Source: Acidilobus saccharovorans 345-15 (lineage in GTDB: Archaea > Thermoproteota > Thermoprotei_A > Sulfolobales > Acidilobaceae). From it: a stretch of 64,000 bases of DNA. Below the pieces are notes generated by a model, which was not told the DNA's origin, searched no databases, and was given only the letters and a program-made list of their open reading frames with translations. The first letter of the stretch is position 1. Every line of letters starts with the position of its first letter. The stretch is taken from positions 1,240,001 through 1,304,000 of the forward strand of contig NC_014374.1 in the NCBI RefSeq assembly GCF_000144915.1, given 5' to 3'. Positions 7,823-52,082 of this stretch are shown one piece after another. The position numbers and the translations under genes are program-made.

Positions 7823-8286
7823 TGGACATGAGCTGGGACAAGCACGGTAGGATTCACGACCTGATATTCTGGCCTGAGCGCGAGGAAGTAGACAAATACG
7901 TCTATACTCCAGGCCTTCATGGACTCGAGCTGGCCAAGGCCCTGGTTGAGGGCAGGATACTTGGGATGAAGTGCAGCGACGGCTCGGTATACGTACCGCC
8001 TAAGACCTTCTGCCCAGACTTCGGCGAGGGCTCGCTGGTTGAGATCAAGGGACCATGGAGGCTTCAATACTACACCGTAGTTTATGAGGACCTCTACGGC
8101 AACAGGCTCGAGAAGCCCATAGTTGTCGGCGTCATAAAGCCCGACGACGCGGTAAACGGTATGGTACACATAGTAAATGTGGACCCAGGCAAGGTTTACG
8201 TTGGAATGGAACTAAAGCCCGTCTTTAAGCCCAAGGACCAGAGGAAGGGCACGATAGCAGACATACAGTACTTTGAGCCCGCTTAA
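7822..8286 (+). CDS. DUF35 OB-fold protein with degenerate zinc ribbon
   Basis: About 154 residues, homologous to the preceding gene. The shared core is FVPP/YVPPKTFC, an RLEKPIVVGVIKPDD strand and a PVFKPKDQRKGTIADI tail. In the zinc-ribbon segment only two of four cysteines remain (MKCSDGSVYVPPKTFCPDFG): the second and fourth are Gly/Ser- and Phe-type residues, so zinc binding is doubtful. The ATG at 7822 overlaps the upstream stop; a GTG at 7819 and an ATG at 7828 are alternatives. Paired DUF35 proteins beside paired thiolase-fold proteins suggest a 2+2 heteromeric complex. Confidence 0.82.
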   Translation: MDMSWDKHGRIHDLIFWPEREEVDKYVYTPGLHGLELAKALVEGRILGMKCSDGSVYVPPKTFCPDFGEGSLVEIKGPWRLQYYTVVYEDLYGNRLEKPIVVGVIKPDDAVNGMVHIVNVDPGKVYVGMELKPVFKPKDQRKGTIADIQYFEPA

Positions 8287-8940
8287 GCCCCAAAGTTCCT
8301 TTTTTGCAGCTCAAACCACTCGAGGGCTTTCTTCAGCTCCTCCCTTGTGAACTCAGGCCACAGGGTCTCCGTGAAGTACAGCTCTGCGTAGCTGGTCTGC
8401 AGCGGGAAGAAGCCGCTGAGCCTCCTCATGCCGCCGGTCCTTATCACCAGATCTATGGGCGGCACCCCAGCGGCCAGCGAGGGCGAGGCCGTTCCAGTTG
8501 CAATGACATTCCTCTCCCACTCGCCGCTGTAGCAGACTCCCAGGTGGAGGGAGCCACCATCATAGCTGGCCGTGTGCTCCTCGAGCGCTGCCCCCTCCCT
8601 CCTAGCGGCCTCGGACACAAGGGAGAGGTCGCCGACAAGCCTCACACTTATCCTCTCCCCGTTAATTATTGGGTCAGACCTCAGATCCCTCAGCCCGTTG
8701 ACCAGCAGGTCCTCAAGGACGGCCTTCTCTATAGGCGACCTCCTAGTGCAGTTCTCATAGCTCAGCACGTACACAACGGCCCTCCTGACGCCCTCCTCTA
8801 TAACCCACCTCAGGGCCTCCCTCAGCCTCTCATAGCCCTGCCTGTAGGCCTGAAAGTAGCTGATGTGGTGCTTCTTAGCGAACCTCCTGTTGCCGTCAGG
8901 TATAATGCCGATGGTGCTAGGTATCGTTGGGACGCACCAT
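8283..8940 (-). CDS. uppS: Cis-prenyltransferase (polyprenyl diphosphate synthase, UppS family), start frame unclear
   Basis: Condenses isopentenyl diphosphate units into the long cis-polyprenyl (dolichol) carrier used for glycan assembly. The catalytic N-terminal motif is IGIIPDGNRRFAKK. Later come YVLSYENCTR, the RxSGFFPLQTSYAEL segment (VIRTGGMRRLSGFFPLQ) and LWPEFTREE. The correct frame runs from about 8945 to 8283 but holds no ATG, GTG or TTG before the essential Asp. An ATG at 8940, 24 nt after a TATA-like TTATTAAC (8960-8968), is in another frame and would need a +1 shift between it and 8912. The first in-frame canonical start (GTG 8774) would delete the active site. The 3' end overlaps the end of the DUF35 gene by 4 nt. 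Confidence 0.78.
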
Positions 8941-9001
8941 GCAGGTTAGAGGTGTCAAAGTTAATAAGAATTAGTTTCCTTAACCCCTGGGACGCGACTA
9001 G

Positions 9002-29448: not shown

Positions 29449-29958
29449 TTAACCTCCCGGCGTTCCATGATATGTAGCATCACGCCACACGGCGTCCCAT
29501 ATTTCCTGCTCGCTGAGAGTTATGTTCTTTATTATTGCGTTGTAGATCTGCGTCAGGAGGGCGTGATGGAAGCTCTCGTCCCTCAGCAGCATATCTATGA
29601 GGAACGTGAGCGCGGGGTCGGACTTTATCATATTATCATTTTTGAGCTTTTCAAGTTCGTCTATGCTCTCCTTCTCCATCTTTATGTGCGACTCTATGTC
29701 GTTAAGCACGGCCGAGGACTCCGCCTGGTCTATGAGTCCCGCGCCCTGAATTATGGATGCCATAGTTTCATAAATCTTAGAGTGCTTTATTGAATCCTGG
29801 GACACGGCGTCCATTATGAGCTTTACCACCGGGTTCTGGGACCTCTCGGAGGTCGCCCTCAGCTTTTCCGCATACTCAAGCTCACGTTTAGACTCATTCT
29901 TAAAGTACTCGGCCAGCCTTCTCCTGGCCTCAAAGTCCTGCAGCGCCAACTCGCTCAC
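29449..29958 (-). CDS. Ferritin-like di-iron domain protein
   Basis: A 169-residue, all-helical protein. Carboxylate/histidine clusters lie at ESKRELEYAEKL, SQDSIKHSKIYETM, IESHIKMEKESIDEL and LLRDESFHHALL, the pattern of a four-helix di-iron bundle related to rubrerythrin and ferritin-like proteins. No rubredoxin domain is attached. A role in iron or peroxide handling is plausible but unproven. The ATG at 29958 is preceded on the minus strand by TATA-like TTTATACGCG (about 29980-29990). Confidence 0.7.
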   Translation of the reverse strand: MSELALQDFEARRRLAEYFKNESKRELEYAEKLRATSERSQNPVVKLIMDAVSQDSIKHSKIYETMASIIQGAGLIDQAESSAVLNDIESHIKMEKESIDELEKLKNDNMIKSDPALTFLIDMLLRDESFHHALLTQIYNAIIKNITLSEQEIWDAVWRDATYHGTPGG

Positions 29959-30004
29959 TAAGTAGAAAGCTGTTCTAGTCGCGTATAAAGTTTCATTACG
30001 TGAA

Positions 30005-30014
30005 CATATAATAT
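30005..30014 (+). promoter_or_regulatory. TATA box upstream of the M19 peptidase gene
   Basis: CATATAATAT is centred about 23 nt before 30033. This predicts transcription starting near the in-frame CTG at 30033, i.e. upstream of the conserved metal-binding motif and not at the first canonical start codon at 30108. Confidence 0.55.
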
Positions 30015-30032
30015 TTAGCCTTTAACCATAGG

Positions 30033-30938
30033 CTGTCCGGTGGGACCACGAGGCTTATTGACCTACATGAGGACATAGGGTACTGGTACTCCAGGGGCTA
30101 TGACTTCGTGTCGGGGCAAGGTCCCGCGAGCCTTGATAAGCTGTCAAAGTTAGGCGACGTTGCAGTAGTGGCCATGATATTCCCCGCGGTCGGCAGGGGA
30201 AGGTATGACTTAACGCTTAACGTGCTGCTCAACCAGCTTAAGTACTTCCTAAGCCTTGAGCTCGAGGGCAAGGTAAGAATAGTGAGGAGGGCCAGCGACC
30301 TGGATCAGCCTGGGGTGAAGCTAATAATAGGGCTCGAGGGCACGGATGCCCTAAGCGACGCTTATGATTTGCTCTGGCTCTTTAACGCTGGCCTCAGGGT
30401 AATAGCTCCAACTTGGAACTATAACACCAAGTTCGCGTCCTCCTGCACCTCAAAGAAGGACTACGGCCTCACAGACCAGGGCGAGGAGCTGGTAAAGCTT
30501 GCCAACGAGCTTGGAGTGATAATAGACGTGTCGCACTCGTCCAGGCAGACGACCCTTGACGTGACGTCACTAAGCAGGAAGCCCGTCATAGCCACCCACA
30601 GCAACGTGATGGCACTTAAGCAGCACTACAGGAACCTCGACGACGCGGAGATAGAAGGCATAGTAAAGACCGGGGGCGTGATTGGCGTGACCAGCATACC
30701 GGGCACGCTGCCATCCGACGACATAAATGGAATAGCCACAGTGGCCAGCTACATCGGCGAGAGGTTTGGGTGGGACTACGTGGCCCTGGGCACGGACTTC
30801 CTAGGCCTTGACAAGTACCCGCAGGGGTTCTCAGACCTCTCCAACATTGATGACCTGGCTTCAAGGCTTGGCAGCCACGCAGAGGCCGTCCTGTGGGGCA
30901 ACGCGCTGCGCGTCTTCAGACAGGCGCTGCCGCAGTAG
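30033..30938 (+). CDS. Membrane dipeptidase-type metallopeptidase (family M19), non-canonical start
   Basis: A zinc dipeptidase of the renal dipeptidase family. The metal-binding blocks are RLIDLHEDIG (the DxHxD motif), LIIGLEGTD (bridging Glu), IDVSHSS, IATHSNV and ALGTDFLG. The first canonical start (GTG 30108) lies after the DxHxD motif and would delete two metal ligands. The frame is open upstream only to about 30012 and contains no ATG, GTG or TTG there. A CTG at 30033 is the best initiator, giving 301 residues, the family's usual size. It is positioned right for a leaderless mRNA; a sequencing frameshift after the out-of-frame GTG at 30040 is the alternative. Confidence 0.78.
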   Translation: MSGGTTRLIDLHEDIGYWYSRGYDFVSGQGPASLDKLSKLGDVAVVAMIFPAVGRGRYDLTLNVLLNQLKYFLSLELEGKVRIVRRASDLDQPGVKLIIGLEGTDALSDAYDLLWLFNAGLRVIAPTWNYNTKFASSCTSKKDYGLTDQGEELVKLANELGVIIDVSHSSRQTTLDVTSLSRKPVIATHSNVMALKQHYRNLDDAEIEGIVKTGGVIGVTSIPGTLPSDDINGIATVASYIGERFGWDYVALGTDFLGLDKYPQGFSDLSNIDDLASRLGSHAEAVLWGNALRVFRQALPQ

Positions 30939-51145: not shown

Positions 51146-51991
51146 TCAGATCATGCCCTCCTCCATGACCTGCTCCTTTACCCTCCTCCTGAGGTCCCTG
51201 CTCTCAAACGGCATGAGGTCCTTGAGCTGTTCAGGGACGCTGAGCCTGGAGCTCCTAATCATTTTTAGCAGGGCCTTGTAGGCGCTGTACGAGGCCAGGC
51301 CCTCGTCGTTTATGTCGGCCTCAGCTATGGCCTTAGCTACCCTGTAGAGACTCCTGAGCTCCTCCTCGTTGTTCACAACGGCCACCTCCCCATCCCCTCC
51401 CTGGACGACTTTGACTAGCTGGGCGAAGTGTTTAGCTGGCAACTTAACTACAAGCTTATCCCCATCAAGCAGCTCGGCCTCCGGCTCATCCGGCTCATCC
51501 AGGTCCGCATCACTGTAGTAGTCCCCTTCGTCCTCGCCCTCAGAGCCTAGCTCGAAGGGTTCTGGGTAGAAGAGCACCAAGTCGTCGGTGAACGCCACCA
51601 TCTCTATGGATTTAAGGCGACCGTAGACCTCCCTAGCTATGTTTGATACTAAGTAGTACACGAGGAATACGTCTTCATTATCATACTCTTCATCGCTGTC
51701 GTTATCTTCCATGCCCTCGCCGCCTCCGTAATCCCCTTCGTCCTCGCCAGAGCCTACGGCGACTGAGATTATATTGCTAAGCCAGGTTTCGAACTCCCTC
51801 GAGGCTCTCCTGAGGAACACGAAGGAGAGTGCGGCGGTGAAGGCCCCAACAAGTGGCGGCACAAGGGAGGGCCACCTGAAGATGCCTGAGAGCACCAGCA
51901 CTGATGAGAATGTGAAGACTCCAAGCAGGGCTGAGATGATCGTGATAGCTATGTAAAGCTTTACACCCGTCCCTATCAGCCCAACTCGCAG
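51146..51991 (-). CDS. Acidic membrane-anchored hypothetical protein, start uncertain
   Basis: The gene product has a hydrophobic N-terminus and a highly acidic middle (DNDSDEEYDNEDVF, SEGEDEGDYYSDADLDEP, both in low-complexity stretches). The C-terminus is helical and basic (RSSRLSVPEQLKDLMPFESR in parts). From the first canonical start, a GTG at 51901, there is one membrane helix. The same frame stays open to about 52014 and encodes a second helix (LYIAITIISALLGVFTF), but no ATG, GTG or TTG precedes it; a CTG at 51991 is the only near-cognate start. I do not recognise a family. It is convergent with xerA and diverges from the next gene. Confidence 0.5.
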   Translation of the reverse strand: MRVGLIGTGVKLYIAITIISALLGVFTFSSVLVLSGIFRWPSLVPPLVGAFTAALSFVFLRRASREFETWLSNIISVAVGSGEDEGDYGGGEGMEDNDSDEEYDNEDVFLVYYLVSNIAREVYGRLKSIEMVAFTDDLVLFYPEPFELGSEGEDEGDYYSDADLDEPDEPEAELLDGDKLVVKLPAKHFAQLVKVVQGGDGEVAVVNNEEELRSLYRVAKAIAEADINDEGLASYSAYKALLKMIRSSRLSVPEQLKDLMPFESRDLRRRVKEQVMEEGMI

Positions 51992-52082
51992 TATGTTGAG
52001 GCGCCCCTATTAAGGCTAATGCTCTATTGAAGCTTTTTCACCTGTCTACGAACCTCTAAGCTAGAATTACCAGGTGGACGCC

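Follow-up and report, generated by a model that had tools for sequence, protein, structure and literature searches.

The window (the whole stretch of DNA analysed, 64,000 nucleotides of the Acidilobus saccharovorans genome, which is a single contig of 1,496,453 bases and is called G000 below) carries a gene of the M19 or membrane-dipeptidase family with no ATG, GTG or TTG within the first 32 codons of its open frame. The protein read from a CTG at 30033 matches PF01244 (Peptidase_M19) with an E value of 8e-70 over profile positions 8–319 of 319, and it is the sole PF01244 match in the genome. The first-pass annotation had stated that this frame lacks a canonical start upstream of its DxHxD metal motif, and this is confirmed, as the first canonical codon (GTG 30108) follows the DLHED codons; a product from that GTG loses DLHED, while a product from an ACG at 30048 keeps it. 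The same annotation placed the probable start at the CTG on a leaderless transcript. Its proposal of a non-canonical start stands, but the CTG and the leaderless transcript are not supported, as the start column of relatives, the distance to the TATA box and a GGTG string all fit ACG 30048 better. The features of the locus are as follows.

29984–29989, plus strand: TATAAA, a further TATA-like box, about 61 nt upstream of ACG 30048
30007–30012, plus strand: TATAAT, a TATA-like box centred about 38 nt upstream of ACG 30048 and 23 nt upstream of CTG 30033
30012–30938, plus strand: open frame of the M19 gene, beginning just past the preceding stop and closing with TAG, 308 codons
30033–30035, plus strand: CTG, the start of the first-pass annotation, in frame; not favoured (it lacks a Shine-Dalgarno string, has its TATA box at 23 nt and is no start column in relatives)
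30039–30042, plus strand: GGTG, Shine-Dalgarno-like, 5 nt before ACG 30048
30048–30050, plus strand: ACG, proposed start codon
30048–30938, plus strand: proposed coding sequence from ACG to TAG, 296 codons and stop
30060–30074, plus strand: DLHED codons, the DxHxD metal motif
30108–30110, plus strand: GTG, first canonical in-frame codon, downstream of the metal motif

The dipeptidase gene was found in 24 of 60 genomes searched (G000 and 59 relatives). Start columns were compared in the seven nearest orthologues, namely G003, G002 and G001 (87%, 69% and 66% identity to the window protein) and the sister-genus genomes G026, G033, G007 and G019 (46–50%); more distant orthologues, with N-termini of other lengths, were left out. 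The codon aligned with ACG 30048 is GTG in G003, TTG in G001 and ATG in G002 and in all four sister-genus genomes, so that a canonical codon stands at this column in all seven and a dipeptidase start there is favoured. Among these eight genomes ACG occupies the column in G000 only. The starts in G002 and G001 are not forced, since G002 has further canonical codons upstream in frame and G001 has a GTG three codons downstream of its TTG; that of G003 is forced. None of the seven starts at the column of CTG 30033, which lies five codons upstream of the orthologues' start column, and the G000/G003 DNA alignment has a 2-nt gap between CTG and ACG. A frameshift after GTG 30040, which had been raised earlier as something to exclude, is not needed to explain the locus: the M19 frame is unbroken, and this GTG lies outside it, overlaps the GGTG string and is not used as a start by any of the seven relatives. 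For comparison, 35 of 1089 internal ACGs in the surveyed part of G000 face ATG, GTG or TTG in G003.

Spacing of promoter and leader elements was calibrated on 194 G000/G003 orthologue pairs whose canonical start columns coincide near the N-terminus. In G000 these start with ATG (73), TTG (66) or GTG (55), TTG thus being nearly as common as ATG. The distance from GGTG to the start peaks at 6–8 nt (16 cases at 6, 23 at 7 and 12 at 8 nt), with 4 cases at 5 nt and 6 at 4 nt, so that the 5 nt of the dipeptidase gene lies at the short edge of the peak. With 12 TATA-like hexamers chosen by the analyst, the box centre is most often 36–44 nt before the start (34 genes with a Shine-Dalgarno string, 21 without), rarely 24–29 nt (four and six genes, respectively) and 21–23 nt in none of the former and four of the latter. 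In leaderless mRNAs the TATA centre lies about 26 nt upstream of the start, and the 38 nt at ACG 30048 speaks against a leaderless transcript from that codon. The TATA box that had been noted before the CTG is real and its centre does lie about 23 nt upstream, but its spacing fits ACG better. Together the TATA box at 38 nt and the GGTG at 5 nt would speak for a short Shine-Dalgarno leader and an ACG start of the dipeptidase gene. Both A. saccharovorans and Acidilobus sp. 7A are listed as Shine-Dalgarno-rich (54% and 53%) in the available part of PMC10783764.

The dipeptidase leader is not conserved, since the scan found no Shine-Dalgarno string at the G003 and G002 starts and the TATA boxes differ between species: no hexamer of the list precedes the G003 start, and G002 and G001 each have one, at 59 and 47 nt. 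A TATA-like string is aligned at 29984–29989 in all four Acidilobus-clade genomes and may serve either the dipeptidase gene or the divergent gene adjoining it (29449–29958, minus strand). Start candidates for the latter are TTG 29949 and GTG 29958; G003 carries ATG at the column of TTG 29949.

When 61 genes of the window were compared with the syntenic region of G003, a second gene of this kind emerged, encoding a cis-prenyltransferase, with the following features.

8283–8927, minus strand: cis-prenyltransferase gene (PF01255 profile match, uppS-like), read from ACG
8925–8927, minus strand: ACG, proposed start, with ACG at the same column in all four Acidilobus-clade genomes
8935–8938, minus strand: GGTG, 7 nt before the ACG
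8962–8967, minus strand: TTATTA, a TATA-like box centred 37 nt upstream of the ACG

Neither G000 nor G003 has a canonical codon ahead of the motif IGIIPDGNRR, and in both ACG stands at one common column. The gene was found in 56 of the 60 genomes searched, and 30 loci (G000 and 29 relatives) were compared. A canonical codon upstream of IPDGNRR is absent from seven of the 30, these being all four of the Acidilobus clade and three of the four of the sister genus (G007, G019 and G026). All seven have an ACG 7–13 codons before the motif, as against 1 of the 23 others (Fisher 4e-6, with the codon zone picked after looking at the data and the relatedness of the genomes uncorrected). The ACG lies 8 codons before the motif in the Acidilobus clade and 10 in the sister genus. 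The fourth sister-genus genome, G033, lacks an ACG at this place and has a TTG 23 codons ahead of the motif. The ACG of G001 and that of G002 are each preceded, one codon upstream, by an in-frame stop. The TATA box precedes the ACG by 37 nt in G000, 40 nt in G001 and 41 nt in G002, and the Shine-Dalgarno string is GGTG at 7 nt, GGGG at 8 nt and GGTG at 8 nt, respectively. G003 has two ACGs: that at the shared column has a TATA box at 54 nt and is without a Shine-Dalgarno string, and five codons upstream of it lies the well-spaced one (TATA 39 nt, GGTG 7 nt). In G002 and G003 the box reads TTTTAA, which is not among the hexamers used for calibration. The ACG of the sister genus follows an AGGGG string, but the TATA spacing was not seen there. 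From these comparisons the presence of ACG in two genes and in several genomes looks like a lineage habit rather than a slip.

For a wider survey 456,453 bases of G000 (window included) were set against 579,049 bases of G003, giving 327 reciprocal-best frames of which 42 were flagged; 19 of the flagged pairs, including the dipeptidase, the cis-prenyltransferase and a membrane protein, were read codon by codon and the other 23 were judged from the alignment alone. At a bit-score limit of 100, the start columns of 315 pairs were canonical and shared in 243, differing in 48, one-sided in 19 and absent in 5. Many of the last 24 are ordinary starts, as the differences before the first canonical codon are not coding-like. 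RIO2 kinase and two further genes appear to be weaker ACG cases than the cis-prenyltransferase. In RIO2 a single column holds ACG in all of G000, G003 and G001 (loci L173, L174 and L175). Only G003 has no canonical codon available there; G000 and G001 carry GTG two or three codons upstream. The G003 RIO2-type gene has a stop codon directly before CAG ACG. An FAD oxidoreductase has ACG in G003 at the start column occupied by ATG in G000 and G002 and by GTG in G001, but this is a weak case, with the Shine-Dalgarno string just 3–4 nt away and no TATA hexamer. Also weak is a Pcc1-like gene with ACG in G000 only (GGTG at 7 nt, TATA at 45–46 nt), whose G003 counterpart has a GTG three codons later than the ACG column.

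Genome-wide tallies of ACG give weak support, and the ACG case therefore rests on the dipeptidase and cis-prenyltransferase genes. In-frame ACG with GGTG 5–8 nt upstream was found near N-termini 9 times of 312 in G000/G003 against 3.3 expected, and 0 times of 252 against 2.3 expected in a control genus (G015/G023). At six of the nine sites a GTG precedes the ACG by one to three codons, in most of them the GTG of the string itself, and the three without a canonical codon nearby are the dipeptidase gene and the cis-prenyltransferase gene in both species. CAA and AGT are also raised in tallies of this type. When a TATA box and a Shine-Dalgarno string were scored together, ACG occurred five times in frame and not at all out of frame, ACC and AGG each giving 5 against 0.5; of the five ACG sites, two lie near a canonical codon.

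The control genus contributed 184 pairs, 20 of them flagged and 19 scanned (one straddling two stretches was left out). Since 14 of the 19 match a Pfam family, most flagged control pairs are real genes and not antisense frames. Three (cis-prenyltransferase, RIO2 and phosphoglycerate mutase) were read by codon and the other 17 were judged through Pfam and the positions of differences. The control cis-prenyltransferase starts with ATG in both genomes, with a chance ACG further upstream, and control RIO2 has GTG in both. The control phosphoglycerate mutase has a conserved upstream part before its Pfam domains (which begin at residue 92), taken for an upstream overlap. The control genus is a good control for the cis-prenyltransferase and only a fair one for the remaining genes. 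TTG is its commonest start (117 TTG, 102 GTG, 93 ATG).

We consider it probable, at about two in three, that translation of the dipeptidase begins at ACG 30048, behind a short Shine-Dalgarno leader, and that this codon is read by the ordinary initiator tRNA with anticodon CAU. The ACG is one base from AUG, lies at the start column and has no canonical alternative nearby. The basis of this reading is purely comparative (the start column, the spacing of promoter and Shine-Dalgarno string, the recurrence in a second gene and a normal CAU initiator tRNA), with few ACG cases and with related genomes that are not independent. The leader would be about 10–15 nt long, and its GGTG string would position the ribosome at the ACG, where the initiator tRNA would pair with a mismatch at the middle base. 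The protein would then begin with methionine (M-R-L-I-D-L-H-E-D), as expected if ACG is read by the CAU initiator tRNA. The codon may have arisen from an ATG-type ancestor through one T-to-C change, and such a change may have been tolerated because other genes of the lineage, the cis-prenyltransferase being the clearest, already have ACG as their start. On balance we lean slightly towards the broader proposal that ACG is a genuine start in Acidilobus and its sister genus, kept in the cis-prenyltransferase through genus-level divergence and newly gained in other genes such as the dipeptidase. The cis-prenyltransferase ACG has perhaps been kept for low or regulated output, which is a guess.

Two changes of machinery were considered and rejected. 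The initiator stem-loop GGG-CTCATAA-CCC is present in exact form in one tRNA (L141). A search for a second initiator tRNA with anticodon CGU gave 58 pattern hits, and the three CGT loops among them fall outside the 45 tRNA places; the pattern search covered all 45, and 30 were scanned with ARAGORN, 4 of these being without a gene or a clear anticodon. Relaxed initiation through loss of aIF1 (SUI1) does not apply, as aIF1 is present in G000–G003. In the portions available of two papers, aIF1 of S. solfataricus is reported to discriminate against non-canonical starts (PMC8211752) and to act against non-AUG starts (PMC6237735), and its presence counts against the ACG reading.

Since ACG occupies the dipeptidase start column in G000 alone, is one transition away from ATG and could be compared with no second genome of the species among those searched (the genome contig scan returned two loci, one from UBA162 and one distant bacterial), the deposited base may be wrong or clone-specific and the real codon may be ATG or another canonical one. 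We regard this as unlikely, because ACG stands at the likely start of the cis-prenyltransferase in seven genomes and of RIO2 in three, and ACG starts free of sequencing error therefore seem to exist in the lineage. A start codon changed in one genome only could also mean that the start has been lost, leaving a young pseudogene or only the truncated product from GTG 30108. The G000 branch does carry somewhat more non-synonymous change than the G003 branch (23 non-synonymous and 30 synonymous against 17 and 35 with G002 as outgroup; 25 and 38 against 17 and 33 with G001), but with outgroup G002 this excess falls short of significance (P 0.32), the frame is intact over 292 codons and the truncated product is without the metal motif, all of which makes loss of the gene very unlikely. 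Least credible of all is editing of the ACG to AUG in the mRNA, as in plant chloroplasts: C-to-U change at exactly that base would presumably restore AUG in both genes, but nothing in the sequence calls for it and we know of no case of C-to-U editing in archaeal mRNA.

Two other in-frame codons compete with ACG 30048. An mRNA starting without a leader at CTG 30033 would have its TATA centre 23 nt upstream, near the leaderless spacing, and another gene of the genus may start at CTG (the G003 phosphoesterase gene b373, below). Against this, the starts of all seven relatives lie elsewhere, the 2-nt gap falls between CTG and ACG in the alignment with G003, and TATA distances of 21–29 nt are rarer than those of 36–44 nt (4 against 34 with a Shine-Dalgarno string, 10 against 21 without), so that we hold this start to be distinctly improbable. 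ATT is a rare bacterial start, and an ATT at 30057, three codons past the ACG, would give a protein beginning M-D-L-H-E-D; G001 has GTG at this column in addition to its TTG. However, six of the seven relatives have no canonical codon there, and GGTG and the TATA centre lie 14 and 47 nt upstream, both off the calibration peaks, which leaves initiation at ATT with even less in its favour than loss of the start codon. ACG 30048 thus remains the start that we prefer.

ACG is a triplet hardly ever used as the start of microbial proteins. Near-cognate initiation at ACG is known from eukaryotes and their viruses, for example in VP2 of AAV; what is proposed here is alike in that ACG would be read by the ordinary initiator tRNA, but it concerns an archaeon, in which a short leader with a Shine-Dalgarno string precedes the ACG, seemingly the only start of the gene. 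AUU is a rare start of bacterial infC, and ACG starts occur in chloroplast genes, where they are often edited to AUG. The chloroplast genes resemble the present ones in having ACG at the start column; non-AUG chloroplast starts are described in the accessible text of PMC9845219. Streptomyces sigR has a GTC start, according to the excerpt available of PMC5472188. Like infC and sigR, the dipeptidase would be a single gene with a rare start codon that may serve to control output, the difference being that its codon is ACG, with a middle-base mismatch, and that it is archaeal. In the part available of a review (PMC7531240) archaeal starts are given as AUG, GUG and UUG, and ACG and CUG do not occur there as words; the Shine-Dalgarno-led mRNAs described in that part are similar in leader, spacing and promoter distance and differ in the ACG start. 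No prokaryotic ACG start was found among the matches listed from the open-licence literature, which is not proof of absence.

Gene finders take ATG, GTG, TTG and at most a few others, so they would overlook or mis-trim a gene with a conserved ACG start, and mis-trimming of the dipeptidase would remove its catalytic metal motif. If the ACG reading is true, these genes would show a prokaryote with a native ACG start that has been conserved. An archaeal initiation complex, whose aIF1/aIF2 core is common to eukaryotes, would then seem to accept a middle-base mismatch in vivo, and the genes would be natural tests of such acceptance.

Other unusual codons were seen at start columns in the survey. 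The G003 metallophosphoesterase gene b373 (orthologue of L116:978-1604) has CTG at the ATG column, with GGTG 7 nt upstream and an in-frame stop two codons before, and G003 gene b35 likewise has CTG at an ATG column. In a535/b637 (L113 at about 4958, G000:1084958, and its G003 orthologue) both species have AGAGGTGA followed 6 nt later by ATA, which is a possible start of that protein. No wider claim is made for either codon as a start, since the tally gave 12 CTG against 9.2 expected and 4 ATA against 14.5. G003 also has a second, broken copy of the FAD-dependent oxidoreductase gene (G003:C1:992126-993299, minus strand) with an in-frame TGA. Finally, a membrane protein gene of the window (51149–52006, minus strand), which has no Pfam match, has no ATG, GTG or TTG before its conserved part in the window; the sequence ACG GGT ... 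AAG CTT TAC is common to the window and G003.
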